Shown piece after piece: positions 16,807 through 49,594 of a DNA stretch of 64,000 nucleotides (the stretch's first letter is position 1; each line of letters opens with the position of its first letter). This DNA comes from Hydrogenivirga caldilitoris (lineage in GTDB: Bacteria > Aquificota > Aquificia > Aquificales > Aquificaceae), in the NCBI RefSeq assembly GCF_003664005.1, contig NZ_RCCJ01000001.1, positions 930,001-994,000 of the forward strand, read 5' to 3'. The notes under the pieces are model-generated. The model worked only from the letters and a program-made list of their open reading frames with translations. It ran no database searches and was not told where the DNA came from. The position numbers and the translations under genes are program-made.

Positions 16807-17529
16807 TTATACCAAAAGTTTTTCCAATTCCCTGCGGTTGATTATCTCTATGTATCCCCTTTCCGTATTTATTATCCCCTGTTTTTTCCATCTGCTCATA
16901 ACCCTTATGGCGGTTTCAACCGTTGTTCCAGTCATCTCCGCTATGTCCTGCCTGGTAAGAGGAAGCTTGATTATTATCTTCCCATCCTTTTCAACACCTA
17001 TTCTGTCCGCAAGCTCCAGTAAAACCTTCGCGATTCTCTCCTCAACCCTTCCAGAGGCTATGCTCTTAAGTATTTCATAGGTTTGGAGTAAGTTCGCCGT
17101 TGCATCACAGGTCATCTTTATTGCAACCGCAGGATACTTTATGGCAAGCGTTATAAAATCTTTGTTGGATATATACAGAACCTTTGACTTAAGTATAGCC
17201 ATAGCTGTGTAGGTACTTTTAGGAGTGTTCCTGCCCCACTCTATCCATCCAAAGACATCTCCAGGGAAAACAAGCCTGACTATGATGGTTTTGCCATCTT
17301 GGGTTTCCTTTATTAGCTTGACAAGACCATCAATAAGTATAAAAATGCCCGGTTCTGCATCCTCTTCAAAGAAGAGATAGTCATTCTTATCGTATTCCTT
17401 TATGTTCATATATCTTACAGCTTCCCTGAGCTCATCAGGGTTAAGGTCCTCAAAGAGATGAACCTTCTGTATGAATTCAAGCTTTATATCTTCTGGAGTT
17501 CGCCCTTTAGCAGTAGCTTTTTTTCCCAT
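16807..17529 (-). CDS. Crp/Fnr-family transcriptional regulator
   Basis: Cyclic-nucleotide-binding beta-barrel (about residues 20-135), dimerisation helix (about 135-165) and winged HTH (about 185-235). The recognition helix reads TTVETAIRVMSRWKKQG, close to the FNR form (TVET..R). There is no N-terminal cysteine cluster, so it is not an Fe-S oxygen sensor of FNR type; the ligand is unknown. The ATG has AGGAGG seven bases upstream and overlaps the upstream aminopeptidase gene by 46 bases. A Crp-type palindrome at 54851-54868 is a possible target elsewhere in the window. Confidence 0.92.
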   Translation of the reverse strand: MGKKATAKGRTPEDIKLEFIQKVHLFEDLNPDELREAVRYMNIKEYDKNDYLFFEEDAEPGIFILIDGLVKLIKETQDGKTIIVRLVFPGDVFGWIEWGRNTPKSTYTAMAILKSKVLYISNKDFITLAIKYPAVAIKMTCDATANLLQTYEILKSIASGRVEERIAKVLLELADRIGVEKDGKIIIKLPLTRQDIAEMTGTTVETAIRVMSRWKKQGIINTERGYIEIINRRELEKLLV

Positions 17530-20239: not shown

Positions 20240-23029
20240 CTAAACCTTGTACCTTCTTAAAAGGTGAACTACTGTGAGGGTAAGCAGTATAAGTAGGTAA
20301 GTGGGTGAAGAAGAGCCTCCAAGTGAACATCCACCATCGTCTCCACCACCACTATCAGGAACGAGCATGACAAGAGGGTCCGTTATCTCACCGCTGTTAG
20401 TGTTGCTGTCATAGATTCCGTTGTCATTAACAGTTAAGCTCACCGTGTTGCCGTTCACACTGACCACCGAGTTTACATCGTGATAGTTGCCGTTAACGAG
20501 CTTGTAAAAGAGTGCGTTGGGAGGGATGTTGGGGAACGTAACGCTGACGGTTATACTCCCAGTTACACTGTGAACTGTAAAGTTAACAGCTCCGCAAGGT
20601 GCTGTGGCATTTATGGGGAATTGGGGCAGGTTTTTCATAACTGAAGCTCCCTCCTTGAACAGTCCGCCCTGAATGTTTACGGTTATGTTTCCACACTCCG
20701 CATCGGGGATTGATGAAGAGGAGCTATCAAAGTTTGCCGTGCAGGTCTTATCAGAATACATAACTATCTGACAAGACACGTTCGTATCACAGCTCGCACA
20801 GTCTCCTCCCCACCCCGTAAAGGTTGAACCTGTGTCCGGAGTGGCGTTTAGCGTAACACTGCTCTCTACGTTAAACTGAGCTGTGCAGTTTACTCCGCAG
20901 TTGATACCCGCAGGGTTGCTCGTCACGGTTCCTGAGCCTGTTCCGGTTTTGTTGACGGTAAGGGTGTGGGTAGGATTTGGTTCGGAGAACTTCGCCACGA
21001 AGGCGTCTTGCAAACCTTTTCTTTCAGATTGGTTCTCGTTCTTCAGAGGGAAGTCTGTTGATTGAGTATGTCCTGTTATGTAGATACTATTGGAATTGTC
21101 TACAGCTATACCCCAACCTTCTTCATTACCGCTACCGCCAAAGTAGGTCAGGTAGATTATGGAACTTCCCGTAGAGTTGATTTTGACTAAGAAAACATCC
21201 AGAAAAATTCCATTGAGAGAATCTTGGTAAGCATCGTCAGTGACAGGGAGGTCAGTGGAAGTTGTGAAACCTACTATGTAAATGTTCTTGGAGCTATCTA
21301 GGGCTATGTCCCTTCCTGCATCAGTGCCGTTACCTCCTAAATAACTTGAATAGACCAAGCTGTCCTGTTCCGACTTAGTGGTATCTATCTTTGTAATAAA
21401 GGCGTCTTGTGAAAAAGGGTCGGAGTCCAAAGCATCTGGTGTTGTCGGAAAAGTGGATGACCTTGTCTCTCCTGTGATGTATGCAACTCCGGAATCATCG
21501 GCGGCAATCCCGTAGCCTATATCGTCGCCATTTCCACCTAAATAGGTGGCGTAAAGGGTATTTCCGTTAGGGTCTAGCTTCACAACAAAGGCGTCGTATT
21601 TGTTCGAATCACAGCTGCTGTTATCGCCACAGGTTGAGTCGTAAGCGTTCATGGTAGGAAAGCTTGGTGATACGGTATGCCCGGTCACATAGGCGTTCCC
21701 GGAGCCATCAATAGCTATATCATACCCAGTGCTATCGTTTCCTATGTTCCTTAAGTAGATTAGACTGTTCTGTCCCTGCTGGTTGGTGTCTATCTTTGCC
21801 ACAAAGGCGTAGGAGACACCCGATTCCCAGGTGTTGCCCGTTATGTAAGCGTTCCCAGAGTCATCAACAGCTAACCCGAAAGCAGCCGTGTTATATATAT
21901 TTTGAGTCAGGTTTGCAAGATAATTCCAATATAGAACCTGGTCGCCGCTAGGATTGAGCTTTATTATGAAACCATTATTGCCGGTTATGTAAATATTCCC
22001 AGAGCCGTCTACGGCTATGTCCCACGCTATCTGGTCGTCCGTTACGTCTATATAGGTAGAGTAAAGTAGATTTCCAGAAGGGTCAAACTTTGTTATAAAT
22101 GGGTCACCATCACAGGTGTTCGGATCGTTATCGGTACCGCAATCGTTATCGTATTCATTCATTAGAGGAAAGTCTGTTGAGTTGGTGCTTCCGGTCACAT
22201 AGGCATTTCCAAAGTTGTCCACCGTGATAGCTCTCCCGAGCTCACCGCTACTCCCACCCAGGTAAGTAGAGTAAGAGAGCACAGGGTCTATAAAGAGGGC
22301 ATACCTCTCATCGTAAGGACCCAGCCTGAAGGTGTAAACAAAGGAGTCTCCCTCCCTGTTTACCACATACTCGCCCTCTATTACCTTCTTCTTCCCTCCT
22401 ATCTCCTGATAAACGTAGGGTTTTTTCTGAATTACCTCCCTACCGGAGAGAAGAACTGCCAAGAGCTCTCCCCTATCGTTTACCTTCAGCTCCTTAACAC
22501 CTTCATAGCTGAACCTCACCACACCAGGGTCAACCCCAGGCTTCACCACCACATCGTATTCAAGTCTCCTCTGGTTCCCGTAAAAGACGAGGTCTATACC
22601 CTCATATACCTCTCTGTATCTGACCTTCCCGTAGGTCGGTATGTTGGTTCTCCAGTTCTTCGGGTCTTTACCCTTGAAGTAGTTGACCTTTCCTGAGAGT
22701 TTATCCTCCGCCTCTATATTTGTTTTTGGGTTTGCTCCGAGGGGTGTTATCTTCACCACTTCTGGTTTGGAGTTTTTCTTGCTGAGGGTTATATATATGC
22801 CTTCTTTGGTGAAGTAGGTGCTGTGTCCTGTGCCTTTCTCGTAGAACTTTACCTTGCTGTCAACCTGTCCCCTGTTCTCTATGAAGAAGAGGGGAAGCTC
22901 TCTATAAATGTTTGTTAATCCCGTCTTCTGCTGTTGTGTGTGAGGTCTAACACTCTCTTCCTGTATCAAGAAGAGTAGTGATAACGTAATTAAAGCAAGA
23001 GAGAAAGTTAATATGTAAACTCTCCTCAT
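20240..23029 (-). CDS. SBBP beta-propeller surface protein with CTERM sorting tail
   Basis: Large exported protein of unknown role. In order: signal/anchor (residues 1-22); a conserved N-terminal module (about 45-250; ELPLFFIENRGQVDSKVKFY); many SBBP repeats (about 250-690) with the recurring text DxSGNxYxTGxT; a bacterial-repeat module (about 695-765; TGSGTVTSNPAGINCG); a choice-of-anchor U-type domain (about 775-890). The tail is GGGDDGGCSLGG, a hydrophobic stretch and RRYKV. This Gly/Cys-helix-Arg ending matches JDVT/MYXO-type CTERM signals, implying proteolytic processing and surface anchoring. Its gene has its own sigma-54 promoter and upstream sites, so expression is tightly controlled. 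Confidence 0.87.
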   Translation of the reverse strand: MRRVYILTFSLALITLSLLFLIQEESVRPHTQQQKTGLTNIYRELPLFFIENRGQVDSKVKFYEKGTGHSTYFTKEGIYITLSKKNSKPEVVKITPLGANPKTNIEAEDKLSGKVNYFKGKDPKNWRTNIPTYGKVRYREVYEGIDLVFYGNQRRLEYDVVVKPGVDPGVVRFSYEGVKELKVNDRGELLAVLLSGREVIQKKPYVYQEIGGKKKVIEGEYVVNREGDSFVYTFRLGPYDERYALFIDPVLSYSTYLGGSSGELGRAITVDNFGNAYVTGSTNSTDFPLMNEYDNDCGTDNDPNTCDGDPFITKFDPSGNLLYSTYIDVTDDQIAWDIAVDGSGNIYITGNNGFIIKLNPSGDQVLYWNYLANLTQNIYNTAAFGLAVDDSGNAYITGNTWESGVSYAFVAKIDTNQQGQNSLIYLRNIGNDSTGYDIAIDGSGNAYVTGHTVSPSFPTMNAYDSTCGDNSSCDSNKYDAFVVKLDPNGNTLYATYLGGNGDDIGYGIAADDSGVAYITGETRSSTFPTTPDALDSDPFSQDAFITKIDTTKSEQDSLVYSSYLGGNGTDAGRDIALDSSKNIYIVGFTTSTDLPVTDDAYQDSLNGIFLDVFLVKINSTGSSIIYLTYFGGSGNEEGWGIAVDNSNSIYITGHTQSTDFPLKNENQSERKGLQDAFVAKFSEPNPTHTLTVNKTGTGSGTVTSNPAGINCGVNCTAQFNVESSVTLNATPDTGSTFTGWGGDCASCDTNVSCQIVMYSDKTCTANFDSSSSSIPDAECGNITVNIQGGLFKEGASVMKNLPQFPINATAPCGAVNFTVHSVTGSITVSVTFPNIPPNALFYKLVNGNYHDVNSVVSVNGNTVSLTVNDNGIYDSNTNSGEITDPLVMLVPDSGGGDDGGCSLGGSSSPTYLLILLTLTVVHLLRRYKV

Positions 23030-23052
23030 AATCCACCTCCTTAATTTTTGCT

Positions 23053-23068
23053 TGCAAGAAGTGTGCCA
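23053..23068 (-). promoter_or_regulatory. Sigma-54 (RpoN) promoter of the SBBP protein gene
   Basis: On the minus strand the sequence reads TGGCAC-ACTTC-TTGCA, an essentially perfect -24/-12 sigma-54 promoter (GG and GC elements at correct spacing). It is 24 bases upstream of the start codon, which also has AAGGAGGTGG close by. rpoN itself lies in this window at 48395. Confidence 0.88.
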
Positions 23069-23137
23069 GGAGGGCTTAAAGAGTTGAAGCGGTAGGGGGA
23101 AGGGCTTTATTCAGTTCTTTGGTATATGTCCTTTTTG

Positions 23138-23247
23138 TGTTAAAAAGTTTTACACTTCTATTGAGTTACAGAACCGCTGAATGGTGCAGCCCAAGATTGA
23201 GATATATATATGTAAAATTTGTTTACATAGTGTAAAAAATTCTTACA
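23138..23247. promoter_or_regulatory. Three 17-bp palindromes, probable activator binding sites
   Basis: Three similar 17-bp inverted repeats occur upstream of the sigma-54 promoter: TGTTAAAAAGTTTTACA (23138-23154), TGTAAAATTTGTTTACA (23211-23227) and TGTAAAAAATTCTTACA (23231-23247). Their consensus is TGTAAAAnnnnTTTACA. Centres are 73 and 20 bases apart, near whole helical turns. They lie roughly 95-205 bases upstream of the expected transcription start, the usual range for enhancer sites of NtrC-type activators. The activator is not in the window. Confidence 0.72.
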
Positions 23248-23250
23248 GTT

Positions 23251-23697
23251 CTATTCGGTTTGCGTCATAAATAGACTCTTAGGATGTTCCTCCAGCCTTT
23301 TGTTATCAATTATATGGAGTACCTCAAATCCTTCTTTGACGAGTGCCTCTGCAATGAACCTCCTATGACATTCCCTCCAGTTTTTCTCAGCACACATAAA
23401 GGCAGTTTTTCCGCCCCCTGAGAGTTCCATGAGCCGCTCCAGACCCCTTTTAAAGCCTTCCTTATTCATATAACCCAGGTAGCCCTCTTTCCTCATTCCT
23501 CCAAGCTCAGGCAAATGAAAGTAAGTTATGCCTGCCTCTTCAAGGGCTTTCTCTAAATTCTCTCTGCTAAAGTGGGGGAAACGGGAACTTTTGGGGTAAC
23601 TTCTCACATCAACAAGAGTTTTTATACCATACGTTTTAAGTAAGGAGATAAACTCCACTATCTCCCTTGAGCTGTGCCCAACTGAAAATATTCTCAT
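23251..23697 (-). CDS. DUF488-family protein
   Basis: Conserved cytoplasmic family with unproven biochemistry. The hallmark opening IFSVGHSSREIVEF, the LVDVRSYPKSSRFPHFS motif and the CAEKNWRECHR cysteine-histidine motif are all present. Length (148) is standard. Its ATG overlaps the stop of the sirtuin gene upstream, so the two are co-expressed. The three palindromes begin just after its stop codon. Confidence 0.88.
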   Translation of the reverse strand: MRIFSVGHSSREIVEFISLLKTYGIKTLVDVRSYPKSSRFPHFSRENLEKALEEAGITYFHLPELGGMRKEGYLGYMNKEGFKRGLERLMELSGGGKTAFMCAEKNWRECHRRFIAEALVKEGFEVLHIIDNKRLEEHPKSLFMTQTE

Positions 23698-40032: not shown

Positions 40033-40884
40033 TTATAAAACTTCCGTCCTGTTCTTCCCCTTTTCCTTTGCAAGATACATAGCTCTGTCAACCCTGTTCA
40101 TCAGGGTCTCCACAGTATCCCCCTTCTTCAAACCCGTAACGCCCGCACTAACGGTTATCTTTCCAACCCTGAGGTCAAGGTTCTCTATGTCTTTGCGTAT
40201 CCTCTCCGCAACAAGCTTTGCCCTCTCTGGAGTTGTTTCGGGAAGGATTACCAAGAACTCTTCACCTCCTAACCTGCCCAGATAGTCGGTCTTCCTCAAG
40301 CTCTCCCTTATAACACTCACTATCTCTTTTAAAACCATGTCACCTGTTTGATGTCCGTAAGTGTCGTTGAGCTGTTTGAAGTTGTCTATATCTATAAGTA
40401 TCACGGAGAGAGGATTTCCGTATCTCTTTGACCTTTCTATTTCACCCTCTAAGATTTCCTCTATCTTTCTTCTGTTGTAAACACCCGTAAGGGTGTCTAT
40501 CTCGGCTAAAAACTTGAGCTCTTTTATAAGGCTCTCTATGTACCCGTCAATATGGAGTTCTATGAAAAGGTCTTCGTCAAGCTTGCCTGCCACGAGCAGG
40601 TGTAGTTTGGAGTTTTTGTGTTCGTGATAGGCGTAGGGTTCCTCTCTAAACTGGAGTTTCTTGACCGGGCAGGCGTCCTCTCCGAAAACCTCCCAGCAGG
40701 GGCGGTCTATACCATGGGTAAGCTCGTAACACTTTTTACTAAATAGATTTGCTCTGAACCTATCAAGAGCACTTTCGTTCAATAAAACTACTTCGTAGTT
40801 GGAATCCACCACCAAAGCAGGAAAGGGAAGGCTGTTTACGTACCTTATAACCCCCTCCTTCTTTGCCTTTTCAAGCAAACTCAT
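40033..40884 (-). CDS. PAS-GGDEF diguanylate cyclase
   Basis: Makes cyclic di-GMP. The N-terminal part (about 10-120) is PAS-like and carries a cysteine cluster (KKCYELTHGIDRPCWEVFG, then DACPVKK) that could bind a cofactor. The GGDEF domain (about 125-280) has the active GGEEF loop and an RxxD inhibitory site (RKTD) five residues before it, so it should be active and product-inhibited. It is the next gene after the TetR gene on the same strand, within the hydrogenase locus. Confidence 0.92.
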   Translation of the reverse strand: MSLLEKAKKEGVIRYVNSLPFPALVVDSNYEVVLLNESALDRFRANLFSKKCYELTHGIDRPCWEVFGEDACPVKKLQFREEPYAYHEHKNSKLHLLVAGKLDEDLFIELHIDGYIESLIKELKFLAEIDTLTGVYNRRKIEEILEGEIERSKRYGNPLSVILIDIDNFKQLNDTYGHQTGDMVLKEIVSVIRESLRKTDYLGRLGGEEFLVILPETTPERAKLVAERIRKDIENLDLRVGKITVSAGVTGLKKGDTVETLMNRVDRAMYLAKEKGKNRTEVL

Positions 40885-47072: not shown

Positions 47073-48398
47073 ATGGAAGTTGGTACCGAAAAGCTAAAAG
47101 CCTATGCCGAGGAGAAGGTAGAGAGGGCAAGGAGCGTTTTAAGGACGTTGATGTCTCTGAAAACAGACGTAAAGAACAGGACGCTCCTGAGAGCTGCAGA
47201 GCTCCTTGACGAAAAGAGGGATTACATAAAGGAGGAGAATAAAAAGGACATAGAGTATGCAAAGGAGATAGGTCTAAAGCCTGCCGTTATAGACAGGCTC
47301 GTTCTCAACGACAAGAGGATAGACGGGATGATAAAGGTCCTGAAGGACGTTGCAAGCCTTCCCGACCCCGTGGGTGAGGTCATAAAAGCCTGGAATCTGC
47401 CGAACGGTCTCAAGGTGGGGAGGATGAGGGTCCCCTTAGGAGTGATATTTATCGTCTATGAATCAAGACCCAACGTTACTGTAGAGGCAGCATCCCTATG
47501 CATGAAGTCCTCCAATGCTGTTGTCCTGCGGGGAGGTAAAGAGGCTATAAACTCAAACAGCGCTCTCGTGGAGATACTCAAGGAAGCCTGCAGGGAAACG
47601 GGATTTCCTGAGGAAGCGGTGCAGTTTATAGACAGAGCCGAGAGGGAGATAGTCTGGGAAATTCTGAAGATGGAAGGAAAGGTGGACGTAGCGATACCGA
47701 GGGGAGGGGAGAGCCTTATCAGAGCGGTTGCGGAGCATGCGAGAGTTCCAGTCATAAAGCACTACAAAGGTGTGTGTAACATATACGTGGACGATAAGGC
47801 TGACCTTGAGAAGGCTTACGATATAGTTTACAACGCCAAAGTTCAGAGACCCTCAGTCTGCAACGCTGTAGAGAATCTCGTGATAAACAGGGGCATACTC
47901 AAGGAGTTTCTGCCCAAAATGGCTTACTACCTTGGAAAGGCTGGTGTGGAACTCAGGTGCGATGAGGAGAGCCTTCAGGTAATAAAGTCAGACCCAAAAC
48001 TCTCCTTCGTGAAAGCCGTCCCTGCTACTGAAGATGACTATTACGAGGAGTTCCTTGACTTAATAATCGCTATTAAGGTTGTAGGTGATGTGAATGAAGC
48101 TATAGCCTTTATTGAGAAATACGGTTCCAGGCACTCAGATGCAATAATTACTGAAGACTACACTAGAGCGATGAAGTTCCTGAGGGAGGTGGACTCGGCA
48201 GCGGTTTACGTGAACGCTTCCACGAGGTTCACCGACGGGAACGAGTTCGGTTTGGGGGCGGAGATGGGTATATCCACCGACAAGATCCACGCGAGGGGAC
48301 CTATGGCTTTAGAGGAGCTAACAATCCCCAAGTTCATAATCTTGGGTGAGGGACAGATCAGGGACAACTTCGGTGTTCCGGAAGAGTTTAAGAGATGA
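47073..48398 (+). CDS. proA: Gamma-glutamyl phosphate reductase
   Basis: Second step of proline synthesis. The catalytic Cys lies in KHYKGVCNIYVD, with FIVYESRPNVTVEAA and NASTRFTDGNEFGLG as family markers. Length (441) is slightly long because of the N-terminal extension. Shine-Dalgarno ACGGAGGT lies 9 bases before the ATG, and TATAAT stands at 47045-47050. Confidence 0.96.
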   Translation: MEVGTEKLKAYAEEKVERARSVLRTLMSLKTDVKNRTLLRAAELLDEKRDYIKEENKKDIEYAKEIGLKPAVIDRLVLNDKRIDGMIKVLKDVASLPDPVGEVIKAWNLPNGLKVGRMRVPLGVIFIVYESRPNVTVEAASLCMKSSNAVVLRGGKEAINSNSALVEILKEACRETGFPEEAVQFIDRAEREIVWEILKMEGKVDVAIPRGGESLIRAVAEHARVPVIKHYKGVCNIYVDDKADLEKAYDIVYNAKVQRPSVCNAVENLVINRGILKEFLPKMAYYLGKAGVELRCDEESLQVIKSDPKLSFVKAVPATEDDYYEEFLDLIIAIKVVGDVNEAIAFIEKYGSRHSDAIITEDYTRAMKFLREVDSAAVYVNASTRFTDGNEFGLGAEMGISTDKIHARGPMALEELTIPKFIILGEGQIRDNFGVPEEFKR

Positions 48399-49594
48399 TG
48401 CTAAAAAACGAGCTTCAGCTTAAGCTTAAAGCAAACCTAAACCTTTTGCTCAGAAACCAGGTGGAGATACTCCTCCATCCAGTTCAGGAACTTGAGCAAC
48501 TTCTTAAAGAGGAGAAGGAATCTAATCCGTTTATAGAAGAGGTTTGCGTGTGCGGAAGGGGGTATGAGCTTTTTGAGGAAAGGAAGTCTCCTGAACCCAT
48601 CGTGAAGGCTCACCCACTGGAAACCTTGCAGAGGAACGTGAGAGCTGAGCTGGAAGGTATTGACATTGAAATAGCGAACGAACTGATATCTCAAACTGAC
48701 GAGAGGGGCTTTTTTAAAGGAGACATATCAAAAATAGCGAGAAAGTATGGCGTAGATGAGAGTTACGTAGAGGATATAAGAGAATTTATCATGAAACTTG
48801 AGCCGCTTGGGATTTGCTCAAAGAACTTGCTTGAGTTTGTTAAACTCCAGGTTGAAGAGCTTTACCCTGACGAGCCTGAACTTTTAAGTGCCTTTGAGGA
48901 AGCTCTTGCAGGCAAACCTTTGCCTAAGGAGGCAAAGCTTAAGCTAAGTCATGTGAGGCTATCACCCATAGAGGAAGATGTATCCGTACCCCGCGTAGGG
49001 AAAGTGGACGCAGTTATAGAGCTGGACGATGGGGAGCTGGTAGGATACGTGTATGAAGAGCTGATAGAGATAAAGCCTAACCGTTACTATATGGAAGTGC
49101 TACCAAAGGTTAAGGGTGAGGCAAGGGAGTTCCTGAAAGAGTATATGGAGAGGTATGAGAACTTTAAAAAGATACTCTCAATAAGGAAGGAAAACCTGAA
49201 GGGTATTCTTAACGAGATAATTACCGTTCAGGAAGCCTTCCTAAAGGGTGAGGGAAACCTGAAGAGTTTACTGGTCAAGGATGTTGCCCAAAAACTGGAT
49301 ATAAGCGAATCTACAGTTAGCAGGTTGATAAGCTCAAAGTACGTCAAGACGCCTCAAGGGACTTATCCTTTCAAGTTTTTCTTCGTAAGGGAAACGGTAG
49401 GAGGAGTATCCCAGGAGGAACTTATGCGAGAGATAAAGGAGGTTATATCCAAGGAAGACCGGAGAAAACCTCTGAGTGATGATGACATAGCAAGGATACT
49501 CAAAGGTAAGGGTTACGATGTGGCGAGGAGAACGGTTGCCAAGTACAGGGAAGTTTTAGGAATACCGTCCTCCAGAGAGAGGAGAGAGAGATGA
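48395..49594 (+). CDS. rpoN: RNA polymerase sigma-54 factor
   Basis: Alternative sigma factor requiring NtrC-type activators. Region I (QLKLKANLNLLLRNQVEILL), core-binding domain, HTH (KDVAQKLDISESTVSRLISS) and RpoN box (ARRTVAKYRE, near residue 388) are intact. At 399 residues it is short, as in Aquifex. The start overlaps the proA stop. It likely reads the promoter at 23053-23068. Confidence 0.96.
   Translation: MMLKNELQLKLKANLNLLLRNQVEILLHPVQELEQLLKEEKESNPFIEEVCVCGRGYELFEERKSPEPIVKAHPLETLQRNVRAELEGIDIEIANELISQTDERGFFKGDISKIARKYGVDESYVEDIREFIMKLEPLGICSKNLLEFVKLQVEELYPDEPELLSAFEEALAGKPLPKEAKLKLSHVRLSPIEEDVSVPRVGKVDAVIELDDGELVGYVYEELIEIKPNRYYMEVLPKVKGEAREFLKEYMERYENFKKILSIRKENLKGILNEIITVQEAFLKGEGNLKSLLVKDVAQKLDISESTVSRLISSKYVKTPQGTYPFKFFFVRETVGGVSQEELMREIKEVISKEDRRKPLSDDDIARILKGKGYDVARRTVAKYREVLGIPSSRERRER

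Follow-up and report, generated by a model that had tools for sequence, protein, structure and literature searches.

A sigma-54 promoter with a putative three-site enhancer in Hydrogenivirga caldilitoris: candidate member of a four-operon matrix regulon with a PilZ-domain activator

The promoter of a 929-residue surface protein in the window (the whole 64,000-nucleotide stretch of DNA that was analyzed) is probably one member of a four-operon matrix regulon (probability of roughly 0.8), in which a sigma-54 promoter with a three-site enhancer would be served by a PilZ-domain activator under the control of c-di-GMP. The boxes of this enhancer appear to be of the PrsR-box type, and they are probably gated by c-di-GMP through the PilZ domain rather than by phosphorylation. 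Such a regulon offers a circuit for surface attachment in Aquificota that can be put to the test, with one activator, one DNA box and a handful of operons. The features of the window are as follows.

16807-17529: CRP-family gene
20240-23029, minus strand: secreted surface protein, 929 aa, from sequence and domain matches
23036-23041, minus strand: ribosome-binding site AGGAGG ahead of the ATG at 23029, read from the sequence
23042, minus strand: predicted transcription start, 12 nt past the C of the -12 element
23053-23068, minus strand: sigma-54 -24/-12 promoter TGGCACACTTCTTGCA, an exact match to TGGCAC-N5-TTGCA
23138-23154: proximal putative activator box TGTTAAAAAGTTTTACA, 69 bp from the promoter, center at about -104
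23211-23227: distal putative activator box 1 TGTAAAATTTGTTTACA, center at about -177
23231-23247: distal putative activator box 2 TGTAAAAAATTCTTACA, center at about -197, 20 bp from box 1
48395-49594, plus strand: rpoN (sigma-54), PF04552 match, needed by the promoter

The first-pass annotation had placed a sigma-54 promoter with three 17-bp palindromes upstream of the surface protein gene, and both are present. The promoter carries the GG and GC elements of the consensus TGGCAC-N5-TTGC at their fixed spacing, and the palindromes at 23138, 23211 and 23231 deviate from the proposed pattern at one, zero and one positions, respectively; the fuller box consensus is TGTAAA-N5-TTTACA. Sigma-54 transcripts start about 12 nt downstream of the -12 element, the rule from which the start at 23042 is predicted. 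Promoter and boxes lie between the surface protein gene and a DUF488 gene ending at 23251, with distal box 2 only 3 bp from the stop codon of the latter. The sigma-54 core alone could be a chance occurrence: a match with at most one mismatch appears in 43 of 100 shuffles of the window, which is not significant, and the genome as a whole holds 55 such matches versus 70 in the reversed control. The combined arrangement is significant, because the full triple layout, found once in the window, is contained in none of 300 Markov-simulated windows. Box matches with up to two mismatches number nine in the window against 2.01 expected, a count reached in 0 of 100 shuffles.

The 929-residue protein has a signal-like N terminus, a DUF7948 domain and seven SBBP β-propeller repeats, together with an InlB-B-like repeat, a choice-of-anchor U domain and a C-terminal tail of Gly/Cys, hydrophobic and RR segments. 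A Gly-rich/Cys-hydrophobic-RR tail of this kind, resembling a sorting tag, is common to three box-controlled surface proteins, with the sequences GGCSLGG.., GGCTSAS.. and GGGGGCSSS.. (C terminus of the window gene, L046:4992-6353 and the β-helix gene of L111).

A genome search for the palindrome, the check suggested for it, revealed a recurring triple layout. The 1.75 Mb genome contains exactly four combinations of a promoter, a proximal box and a distal pair 20 bp apart, as follows.

Window, sigma-54 core TGGCACACTTCTTGC: SBBP/choice-of-anchor surface protein, 929 aa
311.8 kb, sigma-54 core TGGCATGAAAATTGC: cellulose-synthase-like protein (BcsA/PilZ), 716 aa, then a BcsS-like gene
316.8 kb, sigma-54 core TGGCACAAAAATTGC: Fap-like operon of an 83-aa secreted protein, a 646-aa repeat protein, a C39 peptidase and an outer-membrane protein
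1383.4 kb, sigma-54 core TGGCATGTTAATTGC: β-helix protein, 453 aa

Searching with the 37-bp distal pair at up to three mismatches also returned four places genome-wide and none in the reversed control. The search with a single box at up to one mismatch recovered three clear triplets, one site at 311.9 kb and a few isolated boxes elsewhere; another five single palindromes lie more than ∼220 bp from any sigma-54 site in the genome and resemble background. The gap between proximal box and sigma-54 core is 69 nt in the window and 52, 66 and 74 nt elsewhere. Only the spacing of the distal pair, 20 bp center to center, is constant, because the step from proximal to distal boxes differs among the loci (73 bp in the window; 55, 71 and 69 bp at the other three). 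The helical spacing proposed for the three palindromes thus holds for the distal pair and fails for the proximal-to-distal step. By coordinates, all four distal pairs touch or run into the 3′ end of the gene upstream.

Within the Fap-like operon, the peptidase is similar to FapD/FilB and the outer-membrane protein to FapF/FilC. The distance from the first base of the sigma-54 core to the start of this operon's first gene is 30-31 nt (L045:8815-8845; also L113, L114 and L116; 40 nt in L114 if ATG is used), which puts the gene start about 4-5 nt past the expected transcript start, and no ribosome-binding site is evident in L045; translation is perhaps leaderless. Directly upstream of the boxes at 1383 kb lies a GAF-HD-domain gene (L046:6569-7666), whose product is likely a c-di-GMP phosphodiesterase judging from its HD-GYP-like look. 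The genome has 25 GGDEF matches, one of which is a diguanylate cyclase gene in the window (40033-40884).

The candidate activator is a 474-residue protein encoded outside the window (G000:C1:307514-308938), 3-4 kb from the 311.8 kb promoter. It consists of a PilZ domain, a four-Cys zinc ribbon, a sigma-54 AAA+ domain with GAFTGA and a Fis-type HTH, so that PilZ and ribbon take the place of a receiver or GAF domain. The scores for PF00158 (Sigma54_activat, 243.7 bits) and HTH_8 (39.6 bits), with GAFTGA present in the translation, identify it as a bEBP. Its PilZ match reaches 30.6 bits against a gathering cut-off of 22.5, with RxxxR and DxSxxG present. PilZ was matched at E ≤ 0.01 in all 15 relatives (31.5 bits for the first member, same cut-off). 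Extraction of the PilZ activators gave no protein from L110 and L102. Residues R2, R6, S30 and G33 are invariant in alignment A2, and both RxxxR arginines and the serine of [DN]xSxxG are invariant in the 15 aligned relatives. Activators from four genomes of genus g10 (L091-L094) read DxSxxA instead of DxSxxG (G33 is Ala), a change that might alter c-di-GMP binding. A PDB search with the N-terminal profile gave no PilZ match, only meaningless weak ones.

Seven full sigma-54 activators are encoded in the genome: the PilZ protein, four response regulators and two GAF proteins. The recognition helix of the PilZ protein reads SRPTIYKLMEKY and resembles its counterparts in PrsR, which read TRPTLYHLLDKY in Vibrio alfacsensis and SRPTFYDLLRKH in Nitratidesulfovibrio vulgaris. 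The C-terminal 45 residues of the PilZ protein share 47% and 42% identity with those of the two PrsRs, and the PrsRs share 36% between themselves. The other six activators share 18%–31% with the PilZ protein, and all lack RPTxY. The AAA+ domains are 45%–56% identical throughout and do not discriminate among the activators. Against the PrsR model (TIGR02915), the PilZ activator scores 409.4 bits, from AAA+ and HTH only, below the equivalog cut-off of 502.6. This family score does not single it out, because the response regulator L061 reaches 414.7 over its full length. Plasmids of Candidatus Manganitrophus, the best tblastn matches to the activator, were rejected as carriers of a related system; their HTH differs and they have no boxes.

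The co-occurrence of boxes and activator was examined in 136 genomes of the phylum, using a composite of one box, 50-80 bp and a sigma-54 core. This composite was found at 36 places in 21 genomes spanning five genera, and nowhere in the reversed control. The PilZ-zinc N terminus is present in 29 of the 136 genomes, including all 21 with the composite, which is absent from the 107 genomes lacking the activator (Fisher 1.8e-18 with relatedness ignored, a statistic inflated by kinship). Within genera g1 and g18, composite matches are confined to the genomes that bear the activator. Eight of the 29 activator genomes have no exact composite match. The distal pair behaves similarly: at up to one mismatch it was found in 12 genomes, all with the activator, and tandem pairs at up to two mismatches in 15 genomes (one in the control), 13 of them with the activator. 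The two without are G104, whose pair has no sigma-54 promoter nearby and was taken as chance, and G009 (91% complete), where a true three-box sigma-54 promoter (L129:3093-3263) precedes the gene for a secreted protein of 177 aa. The search for a PilZ activator in G009 came up empty, and the RPTxY helix is missing from all five of its activators; this genome is the one exception to the match of box and activator. Distal-pair spacing was measured with no spacing imposed in 30 of the 36 composite regions (six without a locus). Among 24 strong pairs, 23 are 18-20 bp apart (six at 18, eight at 19, nine at 20 bp) and one is at 29 bp. A logo of the sites was excluded as evidence, its sites having been chosen by score. 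In the orthologous surface-protein promoter of G015, the sigma-54 core and the distal pair are kept and the proximal box has decayed on one side. The core proposal of the first-pass annotation, that an NtrC-family activator acts through the AT-rich palindrome, gains support from the three further loci, the conservation in G015, the phylum-wide match of box and activator, and rpoN in the window, all at the level of sequence.

When genome contigs from 84,980 species were scanned with the N-terminal profile, 16 loci came up, each of them titled Aquificota, Aquificaceae, Hydrogenothermaceae or Persephonella. At six of them, the activator gene faces BcsS-BcsA, with the Fap-like operon next; at two, both Persephonella, it faces the Fap-like operon only; one, at a contig end, shows BcsS only; and at the remaining seven neither BcsS-BcsA nor the Fap-like operon was seen beside it. 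Boxes with a sigma-54 core accompany nine of the 16 loci. Targets in other genera, named from their sequences, again include genes for BcsA-like proteins and Fap-like repeat proteins, as well as GGDEF and sugar-transferase-like genes. Two g13 (Persephonella-like) genomes, G070 (L144) and G071 (L145), have a box-bearing promoter before a GGDEF-like gene, a possible feedback on c-di-GMP.

From the sites, their layout and recurrence, the co-occurrence, the gene neighborhood and the domains, we infer how binding, hexamer loading, looping and c-di-GMP control, including its sign, might proceed. Activator dimers would bind TGTAAA-N5-TTTACA, and three dimers could supply one hexamer, because two would bind at the distal pair and one at the proximal box. 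Rising c-di-GMP would bind PilZ, and the AAA+ ring would then form or be activated, reach the sigma-54 holoenzyme by looping and open the promoter. The SBBP protein, the cellulose-synthase-like operon, the Fap-like amyloid operon and the β-helix protein would then be switched on together. It is rather more probable than otherwise that the PilZ protein of Aquificota is such a one-component, c-di-GMP-gated activator, with typically three boxes per target promoter for a hexamer of three dimers and the messenger coordinating a cellulose-like polymer, amyloid and adhesins. The stereotyped three-box layout makes the promoters a natural system for studying the step from DNA-bound dimers to a loaded bEBP hexamer. 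Control by nitrogen or phosphate, conditions raised for the window promoter, was rejected, as nothing in the four target operons points there; the likely input is c-di-GMP through the PilZ domain.

Some PilZ domains do not bind c-di-GMP, and the DxSxxA of the g10 members leaves room for a structural or protein-protein role, with activity set by expression or by a partner. For the activator and boxes assigned here this seems unlikely, given the invariant arginines and serine of the PilZ motifs, the PilZ-bearing cellulose synthase among the targets and the abundance of GGDEF matches in the genome. It is more doubtful still that the boxes and promoter are real and another sigma-54 activator, a response regulator or GAF protein, binds them in answer to phosphorylation or some other signal. 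The genome offers six such proteins, and L061 equals the PilZ activator on the PrsR model if its receiver contributes to the score. However, the PrsR-type recognition helix is missing from all six, and the boxes both co-occur with the PilZ activator and lie next to its gene. Judged by C-terminal helix, five of the six have relatives in the box-less genomes G012, G014 and/or G022; L059 is absent among the readable activators of box-less genomes, so that this comparison does not speak against it. RPTxY was found in none of the 21 readable C termini of 23 activator loci (L183 gave no readable protein and L186 no C terminus).

AT-rich palindromes of this look would also suit several repressors, and the CRP-family gene in the window provides a candidate for a regulator unrelated to sigma-54. 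That the palindromes are operators of a Rex-, CRP/FNR- or TetR-like protein, near the promoter by chance, is nevertheless highly improbable. Rex and CRP sites have an even spacer that differs in length. The 50-80 bp distance to a sigma-54 promoter recurs at 36 places against none in the control, tandem pairs are spaced at 18-20 bp, and the five single palindromes with no sigma-54 site nearby look like background.

In the Fap operon, as at 316.8 kb, a C39 peptidase, an outer-membrane pore-like protein and repeat-rich secreted proteins are encoded together. The scores here fall far below the curated cut-offs (FapD NF058616, 119 of 330 bits; FapF NF058560, 160 of 700), and the 646-aa repeat protein has no family match; by sequence, the Fap-like proteins are homologous to Fap but not members. 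Precedents for sigma-54-type activators that are linked both to c-di-GMP and to genes for exopolysaccharide or biofilm exist among the c-di-GMP receptors, which include FleQ, FlrA, VpsR and BerB (PMC10333796, PMC12564702, PMC5552954, PMC7288161, in the portions available). As summarized in those reviews, the c-di-GMP site of FleQ lies in its AAA+ domain, whereas a separate PilZ domain is the likely sensor here; BerB, by the same partial texts, has no N-terminal input domain, in contrast to the PilZ N terminus of the present protein. No PilZ-sigma-54 fusion is named in the available portions of the receptor reviews or the BerB study, or described in titles and abstract openings of the open-access literature, and the combination of sensor and activator appears new.

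The closest parallel is the PrsR/PrsK PEP-CTERM regulon. In the available text of Haft 2006 (PMC1569441), a sigma-54 motif is preceded at 32-92 nt (mean 62.8) by a 17-nt motif ending in TTTACA, sometimes repeated; PrsR is the predicted activator for the 17-nt motif, and the motifs were found only in Proteobacteria. Excerpts of later work report that a PEP-CTERM gene depends on RpoN (PMC9850573) and that a binding assay enriched the PEP-CTERM genes predicted as targets of a PrsR-type regulator (PMC3333781). A 17-nt box with the TTTACA end at 32-92 nt from the sigma-54 motif is present at all four loci described here. The site had been called unusual; it is indeed AT-rich but not unprecedented, because such a box before sigma-54 promoters was described in 2006 (PMC1569441, as excerpted). 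With the pattern used here, the PrsR-bearing plasmids of V. alfacsensis and N. vulgaris contain no boxes, and PrsR targets may be chromosomal; a looser scan of the plasmid stretches gave two weak matches in L132, both inside prsR, and one weak match in L133. Membership in the PEP-CTERM system was rejected for the present regulon: exosortase EpsH (PF09721) has no match in the genome, which also has no recognized PEP-CTERM targets. The host phylum is Aquificota, and the PrsR-like box is thereby extended beyond the Proteobacteria of the 2006 account (PMC1569441, in part). Like the PrsR regulon as outlined there, the present one combines a box ending in TTTACA before a sigma-54 motif with surface or exopolysaccharide targets and a PrsR-like HTH; unlike it, the N-terminal receiver with its kinase input is replaced by PilZ and a zinc ribbon. 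This suggests that the working principle of the enhancer persisted and that sensing passed from phosphorylation to a likely c-di-GMP receptor.
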